A program made the translations under genes and the position numbers. Source: Bdellovibrionales bacterium (GTDB lineage: Bacteria; Bdellovibrionota; Bdellovibrionia; Bdellovibrionales; UBA1609). Taken from it: DNA of 64,000 nucleotides. The stretch is taken from the NCBI GenBank assembly GCA_027459485.1, contig DAIDIG010000001.1:321989-385988 (forward strand). Reading direction: 5' to 3'. This document shows, piece after piece, positions 36,176-43,908 of the stretch (the first letter of the stretch is position 1; the number at the start of each line of letters is the position of its first letter). A model generated the notes under the pieces. That model saw nothing but the letters and a program-made list of their open reading frames with translations. It did not search any database and was not told where the DNA came from.

Positions 36176-36966
36176 ACCTCGCACGATACGCGCGGCTTTA
36201 CGGCCATTTTTTGCGTTTTTCATTTTCAAAGGCGCTCGAGTTTCGCGTCGACTTTTATTTTCGGGTCGGCATGGATGTCGCGTATTACGCGATGAATCTG
36301 GCCTTTTTTAAAATCATTTTCTTGCATTCGAAGTACCTCGCCGGGTGGACGGACGGGCAGGTGACCATTTTTGTGGGAGCATTTATCGTCGTCGATGCGA
36401 TTCACATGACGGTCTTTGCGAATAATATTTTTCAAATCGGCGATCTTATCAATAAAGGCGATCTTGACTACTATTTGGTGCGGCCCGTTTCGACGTTTTT
36501 CTTCGTGTCATTTCGCGACTTTGCCGCAAACTCCTTTTTGAATCTTATAATCGCCGTCGGTGTATTGATCTGGGCATTGGCGCGTTATACCGGGGCGCTC
36601 GGCTGGGCACGAATATCTGTTTTCTTATTGCTCATTCTAAACGGTGCGCTCCTTCACTTTTTGGTCGCCATTCTTTTTATTTTGCCGACGTTTTGGACGC
36701 ATTCGCGGCGAGGTCTGCAGCCGCTATTTTGGCAGACGGCTCGTTTTATGGAGCGACCGCATAGTATTTTTACAAGTCCCATGCGGTGGATTCTTCTGAC
36801 AATTTTGCCATTCTCACTTATGGCCTCAGTGCCATCAGCTGTATTATTTGAGCCGCGGCCTGGGTTGCTCATCGTGGGTACGGCTGTCGTCACAGTCTTA
36901 TTTTTCAGCGCTGTTCAGTGGGTATGGCGCAAAGGTCTTGCGGTTTACGCATCGGCCTCGTCTTAA
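36172..36966 (+). CDS. ABC-2 family permease, second subunit (DUF990/COG3694-like)
   Basis: 264 aa from the ATG at 36172, which overlaps the previous stop and has GGGGTAGGGA in front. Six membrane segments; GDLINKGDLDYYLVRPVSTFFF is the conserved cytoplasmic loop shared by the family (GDLDYLLVRP). Paired with the preceding permease as a heterodimer. A longer upstream reading lies within the first permease and is rejected. Confidence 0.9.
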   Translation: MNLARYARLYGHFLRFSFSKALEFRVDFYFRVGMDVAYYAMNLAFFKIIFLHSKYLAGWTDGQVTIFVGAFIVVDAIHMTVFANNIFQIGDLINKGDLDYYLVRPVSTFFFVSFRDFAANSFLNLIIAVGVLIWALARYTGALGWARISVFLLLILNGALLHFLVAILFILPTFWTHSRRGLQPLFWQTARFMERPHSIFTSPMRWILLTILPFSLMASVPSAVLFEPRPGLLIVGTAVVTVLFFSAVQWVWRKGLAVYASASS

Positions 36967-37039
36967 TCTGACATATGTTCGCGTATCAGTTTGCGTACAG
37001 CGAGCCGTTTTCCACTTGCCGCCAATTACCCGCTATGAC

Positions 37040-37093
37040 ATTTTGCGAACGGGAGCGCGAATCAGCGGTCGTAATTTTACGAACGGGCGCGCG
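37040..37093 (+). repeat. Direct repeat upstream of the coiled-coil gene
   Basis: Two 20-bp copies (37040-37059 and 37074-37093) share ATTTT, CGAACGGG and GCGCG, 18 of 20 identical, with a 34-bp period, near three helical turns. TCGTAA-TT-TTACGA (37069-37082) overlaps the second. The second copy runs into the GGGGGG ribosome-binding tract (37093-37098), so protein binding there could block expression. Confidence 0.4.
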
Positions 37094-37102
37094 GGGGGAA
37101 AA

Positions 37103-39040
37103 ATGACAGCGTTTACATTCAGTGCCGTGCTGTTTACTTTGTTGGCCGTGAATTTGGCTATGGCGGTTCCGCGTGTCCCGACATACGACGAAGATTTGTC
37201 CGCCGTGCAAAGTCAATTGGCGCAGGTCAACCAGCAAATCACTCAATTGCAAGCTGAAGTTGCGAGCAATTCATTCGCCATTCAGAACAACCAAACGCAG
37301 ATTCAAAGCGACCAGTCCGAGTTGAACCAATATTCAAACCCGGTACAATTACAAGACGATATCAACAACGCCCAAGCTATGCTGAATGCTGCGATTCAGG
37401 CGCGTGATAGCGAGGCTCAGCAGCTAGCCATGCAAGAGCAGCCCCTGAATGATCAGATTTTACAACTTTCAAATCAAATTGATTCAGACAGCCAGGGCAT
37501 CGACTCTGACAACCAGCAGATTGAAAACATTCGGCAGGATATAGAAAACAGCATCCAACAACTGAACCAATTAGGCTCCGAAGGTGAGATTGTCGCGCGG
37601 TTGAATGCCGCCCAAGCCGAGTTACAAGCCGCCACGGCTGACGTGAGAAATCAACAGGCGCAAGTGGGTTCGCAAGTGAACTCCATCAATGCTCAAATCA
37701 ATAACTTGATGGCGGCCATGCGCGGCAACGGTGGGCGATTTCAGAGTGCGCGCAACGCAATTTACAGCGATTCTCTGCGTGTCAACCAGCTGCGTGCGGC
37801 TTTGCCCCGCGAAAACGCGACTGCGCGTAATGCCACACAAAATCAGATCAACCAGCTTGAAACGCAAATTCGCGGAGAGCAAGGCGTGATTCAAAACCTC
37901 GATGCGCAAATTGTGAACGATGAGGCGCAAGTTCAAAATTTAAACGCTCGTCGCAATCAGATTGAAGTGCGATTAAACGCGGCTCGAGCGCGCCTCGGTT
38001 CCGCGCAAAGAGCGCTGGCTGATGCGCAGGGGCAGTTGAATCAATTTCGAGATATTCAGCGCACACTTCCGTTACTTCGCAATCGCATTGATAATTTGCG
38101 CAATGATATCAATCAACTGGCTTTTCAGCGCCAAGATTTTTCGACTCAACGCTCGACACTCGCGGCTCAAGTGCAGAGCTTGCAAAGTCAGTTGATCCCG
38201 TACAACAACAGCGTCGCGCAAGAACAGGCTCAACTGAGTCAGCTCAACCAGTTGATGCAGACGATCAGCTCGCTCCAGCAGCAGATCGCGCAACTTGAGC
38301 AGCAAAATGCGCAGCTCACTCAAACAGATAGTGCGGATCAAACTTCGATTGCCGCGCTAACGAGCGCAATCCCGAACCTCACGGGCAAGATCAATGCGCT
38401 CCAACCGGAGGTGGCCTTCGCCGGCGTTGTTCTGTCGAACGGACCGCTCACAGATTTTGATAAGAAAAAAGCAAATAAAATGAACCTTAAAATTTTGCAG
38501 TTCACCGGCTTAGATAACGATCAAGTGCTCAAGAGAACAAATAAGACCGTGAATGTGGTGTTGGCTAAGCCATTAACGGCCGATGACCAATCGGTGCTTG
38601 TTCAATACCTTCAAATGGGCGGGATGCTTTTAGTATGGGGTGCGCCAGAGAGTGTACCGCCCACGCTGCAAACAATGCTCAATGTACAAACCCAAGAGCA
38701 GGTTACAACTCTGGGGTTGCTCGGCGAAAACGATTTAGCGGGAGTAAGTTTGAATGGGGTAAGTTCGTCGGGGCTCATATCAGCTGAAAAGCTATCGGCA
38801 CTTAAAATGAGTCGGACCACGCAACCCATTCTGCGCGACGGCGCGGACCCTCTTTGCCCGGTGGCATTCGAGACGGTGCTCAGTACGGACGACCCAGCAT
38901 TATCGTCTCGAGCTTTGACGCTCGGCCTTGATTTCGATGCTCTCGGCGCCGCTGAAACTTTGAAACTTGAAGCGGGATTATGCTCGGCGGTTCGACATGA
39001 AAATGCTCAAGAAGCGGCGTTTCGCACGATATGCCGGTAG
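37103..39040 (+). CDS. Exported coiled-coil protein, unknown function
   Basis: 645 aa from the ATG at 37103 with GGGGGG 4 nt upstream; the long upstream extension overlaps the permease gene and is rejected. Signal peptide residues 1-20 (ending LAMA). Residues about 25-430 are an almost unbroken Gln/Asn/Leu-rich coiled coil (repeats such as QLAQVNQQITQLQAEV and QLEQQNAQLTQT). The C-terminal about 210 residues are a globular alpha/beta part with VNVVLAKPLTADDQSVLVQYLQ, MGGMLLVWGAPE, resembling a Rossmann-like sheet, and two Cys near the end. A long periplasmic spacer or rod with a terminal head is suggested. Possible partner of the ABC exporter upstream (137 bp), inferred only from position. 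Confidence 0.8.
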   Translation: MTAFTFSAVLFTLLAVNLAMAVPRVPTYDEDLSAVQSQLAQVNQQITQLQAEVASNSFAIQNNQTQIQSDQSELNQYSNPVQLQDDINNAQAMLNAAIQARDSEAQQLAMQEQPLNDQILQLSNQIDSDSQGIDSDNQQIENIRQDIENSIQQLNQLGSEGEIVARLNAAQAELQAATADVRNQQAQVGSQVNSINAQINNLMAAMRGNGGRFQSARNAIYSDSLRVNQLRAALPRENATARNATQNQINQLETQIRGEQGVIQNLDAQIVNDEAQVQNLNARRNQIEVRLNAARARLGSAQRALADAQGQLNQFRDIQRTLPLLRNRIDNLRNDINQLAFQRQDFSTQRSTLAAQVQSLQSQLIPYNNSVAQEQAQLSQLNQLMQTISSLQQQIAQLEQQNAQLTQTDSADQTSIAALTSAIPNLTGKINALQPEVAFAGVVLSNGPLTDFDKKKANKMNLKILQFTGLDNDQVLKRTNKTVNVVLAKPLTADDQSVLVQYLQMGGMLLVWGAPESVPPTLQTMLNVQTQEQVTTLGLLGENDLAGVSLNGVSSSGLISAEKLSALKMSRTTQPILRDGADPLCPVAFETVLSTDDPALSSRALTLGLDFDALGAAETLKLEAGLCSAVRHENAQEAAFRTICR

Positions 39041-39073: not shown

Positions 39074-41137
39074 CTAAAATCTCCAGCCGAACCCCGCACC
39101 CCATTCGTAATCAGATGCCCATTCGACTTCGCCCGAGAATGATTTTGACAGCAAGTAATCCATTCGAACTTTGCCGTACCAGAGGTCGTGTGTGTCGTAT
39201 TCACCTTCGAGCATCAGTGCGAGGCGCGGTGTCAAAGTAATCGATTTATCGAGGTAGAACCGAGCCCCGCCTTGCGAATCAACCCAAGCGCGAGATTCGA
39301 AATTCAGAGGTAACAAATAGCTGAGGCCGGCGATTCCGCGTCCAATTTGCGAAGGGTTTTCTCCCATGCGCAAGATATCCGCACCAGTAAATACCGTGAG
39401 AAAACGGTTCACGTAACGTCCGTAGGTTAAAATACTTTCCCATTCTGTATTTGGAACGTTATTCCATCCGGCTTCCCACTCTGCGGTGAGAATATTCCGT
39501 GTGTTAGAGGTCGTTAAAAAGCCATCCGTCATTTGGCTCAAAACGTTAGCCTCGCCCCACGCATACCAAGGGTCGTGGTACAGTTGAGAGCGTACCGCCT
39601 CGACTTTTGGGTCCGGCTGATAACCTTCGTAATGTACAACGCGCATCATCCCGCTTTCCATATGATAGAGAAAATGGCAGTGAAAAAACCAATCGCCTGT
39701 TGCGTCCGCCTGGAATTCAATAACGACAGTGGACATCGGCGGCACATCGATTGTGTGTTTAAGCGGATCATAATCGCCTTGGCCGTTCAACACTCTGAAA
39801 AAATGCCCGTGCAGGTGCATCGGGTGATGCATCATCGTTCTATTGATCAGCATAACTCGCGCGATGTACCCTTTTTTTATTTTTATTTCATCGCGGGGCG
39901 AGAGCTGATGGTTGTTCATTAACCAAACGTATCTCTTCATGTCGCCGTCGAGAGTGAGCCGAATGGTCTGCACCTGTGTCGACGAAGCGAAATTCGTCGG
40001 ATGAAGCGAGCGAAGTTCGTCGTATGGCTCTTTGTGTTCAGTCATCGGCATCAATGTCATATTCATGCCCATTGTGCCTTGAGGGGTCAGTGCAAAAACG
40101 CGGCGCCAGGTGAGGTTTCCCATAGCTCGATAGAGATCAGGGGTCGGCATATTCGGCGCGGTGTGCAGTGAACCCTGCCCGATCCAAATTGATGCGAAAC
40201 CGGTCCCATCTTGGGCGGTCGCGCGAAGCTCGTAGGCTCCTTTGGCTGGGACGCGTATCAGGACGTCGTAAGTTTCGCCAACGGCCATCAAAAAACTTTG
40301 CCGATCGAAAGGCTCCACATCTTGCCCGTCAGCGGCGACGATTTTCATTCGGCCACCGGCAAATTGCAGATTGAAATACGTCATCGAAGCCGCGTTCACA
40401 AAGCGAAGGTGCATAGTTTGACCCGGCCGGGCCGCAATACGGAGAACACGTCGGCCGTTCGCCAGAAAGGCGTCGTATGCGACATCCGAAATATCCATCG
40501 GGGGCATGCGCAGCAATTCACGGCGAAAGTAATCCCACAAACGACCGGCGCGGATGGCTCCGACTAAGCTTTGCGCCGTGCCCTTTTCAATCGAGTACCA
40601 GTCCGACCCGCGCTTGAGCGTTCGCATGATTTCGCTCGGGCACTCGTGGGTCCAATCGCTGAGAACGATCACGTGGTCGCCATCGTCGATTTTTTCATTT
40701 TTTTTAGCTATCACAATCGCGCCGATCACTCCTTCTTGCTCTTGCAAGCCGAAATGTGAATGGTACCAATACGTGCCGCTTTGCCGGATCAAAAATTTGT
40801 ACGTGTAACTTTCATGTGGTGGTATCGGTAAATTTGTTAAATACGGCACTCCATCCATGTCATTGGGCACGAGCATGCCGTGCCAATGGATCGAGGTCGG
40901 GACTGAAAGTTCGTTGTGAACGTGAATGAGGGCGTCGTCGCCTTCGACAAACTTGAGAACTGGCCCCGGGCTTGTGCCATTAATGGTTATTTCAGCTCGC
41001 GATTCATTGCCGACATAAATTTTTGTCTTCGCCACCGTCAAATCATATTTGACCGTCTTTGCCGATAACGGCGTCGCCAACATAAGCCAAACTAAAATCA
41101 GAAAAAGATGGGATGCCGATGAAATATCGTGTTCCAT
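39074..41137 (-). CDS. Multicopper oxidase fused to a C-terminal outer-membrane-type beta-barrel (CopA-CopB-like)
   Basis: 687 aa. A signal peptide (to about residue 26) is followed by three cupredoxin domains up to about 508. Copper ligands are all there: H84-W-H86 (HWHG), WYHSHFG, HHPMHLHGHFF and HCHFLYHMESGMM (Cys487, T1 Met). CopA/PcoA-type oxidases oxidise Cu(I) in the periplasm. Residues about 530-687 look like alternating amphipathic strands (LTAEWEAGW, LTYGRYVNRFLTVF, GLSYLLP, ARFYLDKSITLTPRLALMLEGEYD, GEVEWASDY) and end in GFGWRF with terminal Phe, as outer-membrane barrels do; this resembles CopB/PcoB. The single frame is open throughout. AAGGA precedes the ATG. The fusion would tether the oxidase to the outer membrane. 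Confidence 0.88.
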   Translation of the reverse strand: MEHDISSASHLFLILVWLMLATPLSAKTVKYDLTVAKTKIYVGNESRAEITINGTSPGPVLKFVEGDDALIHVHNELSVPTSIHWHGMLVPNDMDGVPYLTNLPIPPHESYTYKFLIRQSGTYWYHSHFGLQEQEGVIGAIVIAKKNEKIDDGDHVIVLSDWTHECPSEIMRTLKRGSDWYSIEKGTAQSLVGAIRAGRLWDYFRRELLRMPPMDISDVAYDAFLANGRRVLRIAARPGQTMHLRFVNAASMTYFNLQFAGGRMKIVAADGQDVEPFDRQSFLMAVGETYDVLIRVPAKGAYELRATAQDGTGFASIWIGQGSLHTAPNMPTPDLYRAMGNLTWRRVFALTPQGTMGMNMTLMPMTEHKEPYDELRSLHPTNFASSTQVQTIRLTLDGDMKRYVWLMNNHQLSPRDEIKIKKGYIARVMLINRTMMHHPMHLHGHFFRVLNGQGDYDPLKHTIDVPPMSTVVIEFQADATGDWFFHCHFLYHMESGMMRVVHYEGYQPDPKVEAVRSQLYHDPWYAWGEANVLSQMTDGFLTTSNTRNILTAEWEAGWNNVPNTEWESILTYGRYVNRFLTVFTGADILRMGENPSQIGRGIAGLSYLLPLNFESRAWVDSQGGARFYLDKSITLTPRLALMLEGEYDTHDLWYGKVRMDYLLSKSFSGEVEWASDYEWGAGFGWRF

Positions 41138-41250: not shown

Positions 41251-41327
41251 TGGAGCGGGTGATGGGACTTAAACCCACGACCTTCGCCTTGGCAAGGCGA
41301 CGCTCTAATCAACTGAGCTACACCCGC
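41251..41327 (-). tRNA. tRNA-Gly (anticodon GCC)
   Basis: 77 nt with encoded CCA (TGG at 41251-41253 on the + strand). Acceptor GCGGGTG/CACCCGC and anticodon stem TCGCC/GGCGA are fully paired with loop TTGCCAA, anticodon GCC. T-loop TTTAAGT has a T-stem closing G-T pair. It reads GGC/GGU codons and is charged by the GlyRS at 7.9 kb. Confidence 0.96.
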
Positions 41328-41413: not shown

Positions 41414-42748
41414 TTACTGAACCGGTTTTGATGGCTTGCTCCAACGTTCGAGCATCACATGATGACCGCTTCGAACCGGCACCCAGGCAACGTCTTCGCG
41501 AGCGAGCAAAAAATTGCCAATCAACGGATAGCCGGCGTCAATGCGATGGAGTAGCTGGCCGGCTTTTAGATCGAAAATGCAAATTTTTGAACTATGGCAA
41601 CTTGCCCAAACGGACCACCCCCGGATCGGCGACACATAGTTTAGTGCCTTCAAGCTTTCGTGTGTAAGCATAATTTCGCGCGGGACTCCTTCGGAGTCGG
41701 CTGATACGAGCGAGTACTTCCAGAGTCTTTTTTGCTTCTTCAAATCAAACGCGATCAAGTTATCGGAAGTATCGATCGTAGTGGCGATCGATACTGCATC
41801 GGTGAGAACAACAGGTGATATTGCCTTCGAACCCAATTCAACTTGGCCGGCGTGTCGACCGTTCTTCCGGTCGTAGCCCAATATGTAACCGTCCTCGTTG
41901 CAGATATAAATCCGTTCACCTAACTGTACAGGCGGGCAGCTGAAATTCGATGACCCTTCCGTCGACCACCGAGTTTTGCGAGTGGTTAAATCAACGGCCT
42001 GCAGGTGCCCATCATCGGTCGAGAAAATCAACAAATTACCGGACACGAGAGGTGTCGCTGTTAGCTGAGAATCAAATTTATCGTAAGTCGCCATGATTCT
42101 CTGTTTGGAGGGGTCAAACCGCGCGACCCGCCACGACTGCTTTTTGTCGGAGCGAAACAATAACAATTTATCACTGTATACGAGCGGCATGCGTATCATC
42201 GGCACGGCCTCTTGCCAGTACCAGAGGAGTTGCCCGGTCGAAAAGCGAAATGCATAGAGGCCACCGGCATCTGTTCCGGCCACAACTTCGGAACCGATCA
42301 CGGCCAGTCGGCCCGGTGCGAGTTGCGTCGACGGTGGGAGTTCGAACTTCCACATGAGTCGGCCGGACATGGCATCTAAGGCCAAGATGGTTGTATTGTC
42401 GTGGGCAAGAAGTGCCGGACCTTGCAAAAAAGCCGAAAATCGATCAGTTAGAAGCTGGGGTGGCGGTCCAGCATTCGGGTCGGTGGAGGTCGTCTCTTCT
42501 CGCAATCGAACTGTCATATGATGAGGCGGAGTCACATTCGGCGTTGGAGTTTGCAGATCCGTCAAACGGTTTTCGCTGGTCTGAAATTGCAGTTCGTTTT
42601 CTTGGGCGTTTTCATTCAGCACTGAAAGTAATGAATTTTGGCTCATGATTTCCGGGTTCTTCTTAAAGATCAAAAAGCCGGTCGCCATCATAATCGCGAC
42701 CATTGCGGGTAAGACGAGCCGTTGTAACAGTGAAGGGGGCGGGTTCAT
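41414..42748 (-). CDS. PQQ-like beta-propeller protein, membrane-anchored
   Basis: 444 aa from the ATG at 42748, which has GGAGGTGG 4 nt upstream and overlaps the preceding stop (ATGA). One membrane helix (about 11-27, LVLPAMVAIMMATGFLIF) anchors a periplasmic propeller whose repeats follow the PQQ/BamB pattern: ALDAMSGRLMWKFELP, LYAFRFSTGQLLWYWQ, LQAVDLTTRKTRWSTEG, ILGYDRKNGRHAGQV, LIAFDLKKQKRLWKYS. No PQQ-dehydrogenase catalytic residues were recognised, so a scaffold or binding role is more likely than enzymatic. Coupled to the HTTM-like membrane protein before it. Confidence 0.85.
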   Translation of the reverse strand: MNPPPSLLQRLVLPAMVAIMMATGFLIFKKNPEIMSQNSLLSVLNENAQENELQFQTSENRLTDLQTPTPNVTPPHHMTVRLREETTSTDPNAGPPPQLLTDRFSAFLQGPALLAHDNTTILALDAMSGRLMWKFELPPSTQLAPGRLAVIGSEVVAGTDAGGLYAFRFSTGQLLWYWQEAVPMIRMPLVYSDKLLLFRSDKKQSWRVARFDPSKQRIMATYDKFDSQLTATPLVSGNLLIFSTDDGHLQAVDLTTRKTRWSTEGSSNFSCPPVQLGERIYICNEDGYILGYDRKNGRHAGQVELGSKAISPVVLTDAVSIATTIDTSDNLIAFDLKKQKRLWKYSLVSADSEGVPREIMLTHESLKALNYVSPIRGWSVWASCHSSKICIFDLKAGQLLHRIDAGYPLIGNFLLAREDVAWVPVRSGHHVMLERWSKPSKPVQ

Positions 42749-43908
42749 GGTGCCACCTCCGCGCAAACATTTTGATTTTGCCATGTGAGACGAAATGCGG
42801 GTTCGGTCAGTGAGCGAGTGAGAAGAAACGTCGAAACACCCCGAAAACCGGGGTCATGACTCAGCTGGTCGCAAAATGTCCGTGCACTTGCCTCGGCAAG
42901 CTTCTGCTGGCAATGCAGCGGACCAGCTTGTTTGGCGTCGCTTTGCAGATCCAATTGGCGGATGTGATCCTGATAAATTGCGAAATTCAATTGCCGGCAA
43001 TCCATTGAGGAAGCCGGCCCTTTTATTTTTATCAATTCTATAAATGAAGCGCGCTTAACTATTTTTGTTTGGGCCACAACAAAAAGAGCGAATAAAATCG
43101 GCCACCATAATCTAGAAGGCTCCGGGTGAGCGTACGATTGGTACATCGACTCTTGTTCAATTCGTTTGCGTTCGAAGTAATCGAGCACGAACGAAAAAAC
43201 GAAGAATATAAGAACGATCGATTGAAAATCATGTAAGAACCAATAATGAGCGGCCAAAAAGGCGATCAATGCCAGAACACCGATAGAGAATTGTTGAGGC
43301 ATGACAGAAAACAAAAGCGGCGGCAGTGCCCAGCGAAATAAAATATCGAGCGCAGCCACCCATTCGAGACCCTTTATTGATAAATGAGATAAATGGTGGA
43401 GTTGCGGTTCAAGACTTTTACCACTCAACCAATCCGAGTTGAGCTCGCGAAAACCTGATAGAAAGAAATAAAATAAAGTCGAATATCGAATCAGCGTGAG
43501 TTTTTTAGGTACAAAAAGAAAACCAAGGTTCACGACAATAAACAAGGCGTGGATATCCGATTCTAATCCGGCGTTGCCCATGTAAAAATAAAGCATAAGT
43601 AGAAACGTGCCGCAAAGAAGACTCCAGGCGAATCCGGTTAATCTTCTCGTGGCGAACACGATGACTGATAACGTGGCTAATACGAAATAAGTATGAAACA
43701 GCCAGCGCTGCCAGCCGTGTGCCGCGGTGACGCCGCAATGAGGGGCGAAATCCCAGCAAAGAAGCGGCATTTTCGCTTGAGGCCCGAGAAGTGCATGGTG
43801 ATTCCAAAAGTAAAAGTTGAGCACATGTAAGATGCCGAGAATGACGCCGACATATGAGAGCGCTCGAGATCGTTCGATTTCCCAAATATTCTGCTTGAGC
43901 CAACTCAA
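42745..43908 (-). CDS. Polytopic membrane protein, HTTM-like
   Basis: 387 aa with about eight to nine hydrophobic segments up to residue 290 and a soluble C-terminal domain with four Cys (MDCRQLNF, GPLHCQQKL, RTFCDQL, NVCAEV). FYFFLSGFRELNSDWLSG recalls the HTTM (vitamin-K-carboxylase-like) motif in which a Lys/Arg-Leu-Asn-x-x-Trp-x-x-Gly loop follows a helix. The assignment is by this loop only. It overlaps the propeller gene (ATGA) and starts 1 bp after pgsA, so the three are one operon. Confidence 0.65.
   Translation of the reverse strand: MSWLKQNIWEIERSRALSYVGVILGILHVLNFYFWNHHALLGPQAKMPLLCWDFAPHCGVTAAHGWQRWLFHTYFVLATLSVIVFATRRLTGFAWSLLCGTFLLMLYFYMGNAGLESDIHALFIVVNLGFLFVPKKLTLIRYSTLFYFFLSGFRELNSDWLSGKSLEPQLHHLSHLSIKGLEWVAALDILFRWALPPLLFSVMPQQFSIGVLALIAFLAAHYWFLHDFQSIVLIFFVFSFVLDYFERKRIEQESMYQSYAHPEPSRLWWPILFALFVVAQTKIVKRASFIELIKIKGPASSMDCRQLNFAIYQDHIRQLDLQSDAKQAGPLHCQQKLAEASARTFCDQLSHDPGFRGVSTFLLTRSLTEPAFRLTWQNQNVCAEVAP

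Follow-up and report, generated by a model that had tools for sequence, protein, structure and literature searches.

One gene in the window (the whole stretch of DNA analysed here, 64,000 nucleotides from a member of the Bdellovibrionales) joins in a single open frame a multicopper oxidase with a complete set of copper ligands and a PcoB-related barrel of 12 predicted strands, a fusion that recurs across phyla and is made without a Tat signal. I interpret the product as a single polypeptide in which a cuprous oxidase resembling CopA (PcoA) is combined with an outer-membrane channel resembling CopB (PcoB); the oxidase would stand at the periplasmic mouth of the pore, and its reaction would be coupled to the passage of Cu(II). 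I assign this reading a probability of about three in four. An outer-membrane location, an oxidase on the periplasmic side, copper as the substrate and the coupling itself are inferred; the parts are listed in Table 1.

Table 1. Parts of the fused gene and the adjoining tRNA gene, in window coordinates (residue numbers are those of the fused protein).
Feature	Position	Strand	Basis
Complete fused gene, oxidase and predicted barrel, 687 aa	39074..41137	-	Open frame without a stop
Sec-type signal peptide, about residues 1-26, no twin arginine	41060..41137	-	Sequence; helix 4-20 in the model; comparison with the Tat signals of separate CopA
Three-domain multicopper oxidase, residues 27-503	39629..41059	-	Pfam; TIGR01480 E 1.6e-115, below cut-off; 12 invariant ligand positions
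Short Met-rich loop, residues 354-368, low model confidence	40034..40078	-	Sequence; pLDDT <50 at 356-364
HCH-x3-H-x4-M motif, residues 486-497	39647..39682	-	Invariant in 67/67
Short linker from oxidase to first strand, residues 504-524, one helix (510-520)	39566..39628	-	Model
Predicted 12-stranded PcoB/CopB-like outer-membrane barrel, residues 525-687, aromatic C-terminus	39077..39565	-	Models, fold and profile matches
tRNA-Gly(GCC), directly upstream of the fused gene; neighbour, outside the system	41251..41327	-	ARAGORN

The coordinates of the preliminary description are right, and the gene runs on the minus strand, from 41137 to 39074; its 687 codons begin with ATG, contain no internal stop and end in Trp-Arg-Phe; the plus strand of the same interval is full of stops. 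The two-part protein recurs in another genome of the genus, at 71-74% identity. Related loci were collected by scanning a genome collection of 84,980 species with the full-length fused protein, and the best 80 of 543 confirmed candidate loci were kept; since these are the best-scoring rows for such a query, fusions are over-represented among them and they do not amount to a census. In all 80 the frame continues unbroken into the barrel, and the last residue is F, Y or W in 75. Because the architecture is shared by the genus relative and by 80/80 kept public loci, as it is by 29/29 loci from the host's order (L109-L137), a chance frame or an assembly error can be ruled out, and the earlier claim of one uninterrupted frame holds. 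The residues following the HCH motif number 197-226 in those 29 loci, as against 27 in the canonical CopA at L108. Once near-duplicates had been dropped, 66 of the best 80 loci supplied rows to the first alignment and 63 to the second.

The oxidase part consists of three cupredoxin domains, recognized by Pfam as Cu-oxidase_3 (36-147), Cu-oxidase (154-309) and Cu-oxidase_2 (392-502), with the ligands of the type 1, 2 and 3 coppers complete. The 12 ligand positions (H84, H86, H126, H128, H438, H441, H443, H486, C487, H488, H492 and M497) are invariant in all 67 aligned proteins, the window protein included, and the description of this part as a complete CopA-like oxidase is upheld. The allotment of individual residues to particular coppers follows the general pattern of the family, on which basis the HCH-x3-H-x4-M motif would be the type 1 copper site. 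A Met-rich loop, such as the one in Table 1, is a trait of cuprous oxidases. The closest named model, TIGR01480 (copper_res_A), matches with an E-value of 1.6e-115 and 386.8 bits, below its curated cut-off of 478.95, and the other fused proteins of the host's order likewise fall below that cut-off. Judged by its sequence, the oxidase is like PcoA and CopA and is not a canonical CopA.

With the window protein alone as the query, its tail matches no Pfam or NCBIfam model. AlphaFold2, run on the full protein with an alignment of 67 fused proteins, gave a model with a mean pLDDT of 88.8 and 12 strands at residues 525-686, a region where pLDDT is mostly at least 90. Since a fold search with the full model listed oxidases alone among its 50 matches, the barrel was also folded and searched separately. 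The tail by itself (residues 505-687, 64 rows) was predicted with a pLDDT of 94.9 and showed the same 12 strands, preceded by a helix. Against the PDB, PcoB (7PGE) came first both by Foldseek (E 2.1e-6, TM 0.61 by query) and by VIA (Z 17.4, rmsd 3.2, 162/183 residues aligned), followed in the latter by OMPLA (Z 14.5) and KdgM (Z 14.2). When a sequence profile was compared to structures, 7PGE was the best natural chain (E 1.9e-4), alongside a designed 12-strand barrel (1.3e-4). The profile of the tail aligned by hhalign to that of eight CopB proteins at 96.4% (E 1.2e-9), and a repeat with nearly the same sequences gave 96.9%. The Pfam model for CopB-type proteins, PF05275, gives matches at E<=1 in 30/67 fused proteins (best 5.7e-5), but none at E<=10 in the window protein. 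Among 59 relatives' genomes, PF05275 appears in two, both times inside long frames of 724-732 aa (E 2.4e-5 and 6.5e-5). The tail is therefore supported, on the strength of these models, as a predicted 12-stranded barrel related to PcoB/CopB, and PcoB as best structural match together with the CopB profile match supports the reading of the whole as a CopA-CopB (PcoA-PcoB) fusion. Both the barrel and the CopB/PcoB kinship had been proposed beforehand, and both survive. PcoB itself is described as a barrel of 12 strands (PMC9210255; PMC12509749), and that of Caulobacter also has a helix ahead of strand 1 (PMC12509749).

The fused barrel differs from its separate counterparts in lacking the long Met/His-rich disordered tail that precedes the barrel of PcoB. 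Its interior is probably related to the pore of PcoB but not identical to it, judging from the alignments. E223, among the pore acids named for PcoB (PMC9210255), aligns with E646 of the window protein, in a column that holds E in 47 and Q in 11 of the 67 proteins, and PcoB E130 falls near E555 by position only. The columns that align with the copper-binding pair of PcoB, D97-E207, are 529 and 630; as far as this alignment-based mapping goes, with D97 placed by position only, they are acidic in 31/67 and 27/67 proteins. The window protein itself is acidic at both (E529 and D630). Because the pair is not generally kept in the fused proteins, the chemistry of the pore may differ from that of PcoB. 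This lack of conservation, along with the length of the fused barrel (about 163 residues, shorter than CopB barrels), speaks for the alternative that the barrel serves only as an anchor, holding the oxidase at the outer membrane and conducting no copper. Several charged residues of the barrel, however, are conserved to a degree that an inert anchor would hardly seem to call for, namely E555 (E/D/Q in 63/67), E567 (E/D in 66/67) and R626 and R638 (60/67), and I consider it unlikely, if worth keeping in mind, that anchoring is all the barrel does.

Copper as the substrate may be judged in part from the company that the fused genes keep. The neighbours of the gene in the window include no copper genes. 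Three fused homologues on plasmids were inspected for context: that of Hymenobacter adjoins a four-helix copper-binding protein and an HMA-domain protein, that of Spirosoma a copper P-type ATPase and a DUF305 protein, and that of Ilyobacter heavy-metal sensors and a cupredoxin protein. It has been suggested that the separate PcoAB of iron oxidisers works on a metal other than copper, and a PcoA-type oxidase is described as capable of Fe(II) oxidation (PMC5566968). By analogy Fe(II), Mn(II) or some further metal might be the substrate of the fused oxidase at the outer membrane, and close homologues do occur in lineages with lithotrophs, e.g., Nitrospina and Thermodesulfobacteriota. The placement of plasmid homologues among copper or heavy-metal genes and the presence of the Met-rich loop speak against this, and leave it improbable.

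Both ends of the PcoB barrel face the periplasm (PMC9210255). With 12 strands, the same would hold for both ends of the fused barrel, so the N-terminal oxidase would stay periplasmic, and the surface exposure that the preliminary description had allowed for is disfavoured. Some autotransporter barrels do stand in the fold list (Z 9-13), as would suit an oxidase carried to the cell surface with the barrel serving as an autotransporter-like pore. Such display is very improbable all the same, since PcoB lies above them (Z 17.4) and the model has a short helix alone before strand 1, with no passenger segment of a length to thread the pore.

A Tat motif is present in 7/7 separate CopA proteins (six from plasmids and L108), in contrast to the Sec-type signal of the fusion. 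The window protein has no Tat signal peptide, and a loose pattern finds the motif in 2/80 fused proteins (best 80 of 543), neither one convincing: the match in L040 lies well past a signal peptide and that in L057 lacks the usual Tat context. Among the order's own fused proteins there is a match in 1/29, upstream of the likely start. Loci L004-L017, clipped at the locus end, were left out of the signal count. An outer-membrane barrel must remain unfolded until it reaches BAM, and a protein that has to be kept unfolded to that point would be expected to travel by Sec, so that the missing Tat signal fits a Sec-exported, BAM-assembled barrel. The contrast between Sec and Tat amounts to a testable rule on the assembly of copper oxidases.

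On the reading of the protein as a coupled oxidase and channel, the chain would be exported unfolded via Sec, and BAM would insert the barrel through its aromatic C-terminal strand, while the oxidase would fold and load copper in the periplasm. The helical linker, roughly 20 residues (17-73 across the 67 aligned proteins, mostly 17-24), would keep the oxidase at the barrel's periplasmic mouth, where it would use O2 to turn Cu(I) into the less toxic Cu(II), and the fixed neighbourhood would couple Cu(I) oxidation to the passage of Cu(II) through the barrel. As for the direction of flow, separate PcoB has been proposed to import copper (PMC9210255) and to export it (PMC12509749). For the fusion I slightly favour efflux or detoxification over import. 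Contact between PcoA and PcoB is treated as likely but unproven in the same two papers, and the fusion provides natural evidence that the two work in contact. Since a single chain fixes both their 1:1 ratio and their geometry, a structure or flux measurements could help to decide whether oxidase-made Cu(II) is exported or imported.

The preliminary description suspected similar fusions in other phyla and doubted the novelty of this one, with good reason. The best 80 of 543 loci come from Thermodesulfobacteriota, Nitrospinota, Nitrospirota, Verrucomicrobiota, Planctomycetota, Bacteroidota, Bdellovibrionota, Methylococcales and others. In the host's order (138 genomes), 40 matches to TIGR01480 of at least 250 bits are listed, and 39 of them lie in frames of at least 696 aa. 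The sole exception, in genome G113, is a canonical CopA of 618 aa with a CopB of 270 aa behind it. A separate CopB exceeds the cut-off in one of 140 genomes of the order, the one with the canonical CopA, and in none of the 59 relatives' genomes. Among 3983 matching plasmid records, 25 span 80% or more of the query; going by their listed names, 24 are from Bacteroidota and one is from Fusobacteriota. In one locus of the order (L109, genome G017) the open frame with the fused oxidase runs to 918 aa and includes, ahead of the oxidase, a long N-terminal stretch of low complexity.

That the architecture is new has to be rejected, since the fusion is already in print. Fused PcoA-PcoB was reported in 2012 from five Legionella species (PMC3548706); by that published description they match in architecture, whether or not they share an origin. 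In 2024 an oxidase of Bizionia argentinensis, G2EDV6, was described whose C-terminal region is porin-like, "with some similarity to PcoB" (PMC11213822). By that description it resembles the window protein in having an oxidase and a PcoB-like tail, a plan shared by the Bacteroidota homologues among the best 80 of 543, and differs in its size (about 809 aa) and longer N-terminal part. The available portions of the PcoB papers (PMC9210255; PMC12509749) make no mention of a PcoA-PcoB fusion, and I found no functional test of a fused protein in the open-licence literature. The fusion family is widespread and little studied, and the window protein is an ordinary but useful member of it. Compared to the PcoA+PcoB and CopA+CopB operons, where the two are separate proteins, the fusion holds both domains in one chain, in the order of the genes, and its tail matches, in the predicted structure, the 12-strand barrel of PcoB 7PGE.

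In a maximum-likelihood tree built quickly from 103 oxidase domains, a fully supported branch divides the 7 separate, canonical CopA from the 96 fused oxidases. The root was placed on the separate CopA by choice, these are few, and the fused set was picked with a fused query, so the tree is not proof of a single fusion. Outside the genus, the nearest kin of the window protein and of its genus relative (L122, identical in sequence to L055) are Thermodesulfobacteriota, with which both group (99), apart from the main clade of 24 proteins from their own order. Locus L134 (genome G101 of the order) coincides in the tree with L067, a locus named as Bdellovibrio sp., in keeping with Bdellovibrionales as the probable order. 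I would suggest, tentatively, that the fused oxidases are an old, horizontally spread branch apart from the operon-type CopA, each a self-contained, Sec-exported oxidase-channel of the outer membrane in which the oxidase replaces the disordered copper-binding tail of PcoB and feeds Cu(II) straight into the pore, and that fusion forced the change from Tat to Sec.

The fused gene of the window lies just past tRNA-Gly(GCC), at the end of a block made up of glpX, pgsA and a PQQ-propeller gene. Two genomes of the same genus (G004, contig C8, and G002, contig C17; loci L151 and L152) keep the block of glpX, pgsA, PQQ and tRNA-Gly and have no oxidase gene there, and in a third (G003) the fused gene is on another contig. 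The gene was likely gained horizontally, and not recently. A recent insertion of a mobile element at tRNA-Gly is unsupported: the window contains no other copy of the tRNA stretch (exact repeats of at least 12 bases), and the base composition is like that of the neighbours.

Scans for promoters and terminators at the locus gave nothing above shuffles. On the plus strand, 36848-39040 is a frame of 730 aa, mostly a long Gln/Asn-rich coiled coil with a different C-terminal part, that has no Pfam match above the curated cut-off. At 42745-43908 there is an unassigned membrane-like protein of 387 aa with no Pfam match, and beside it, at 41414-42784 on the minus strand, a BamB/PQQ-type beta-propeller protein with an apparent N-terminal membrane anchor, 34-63% identical within the genus.
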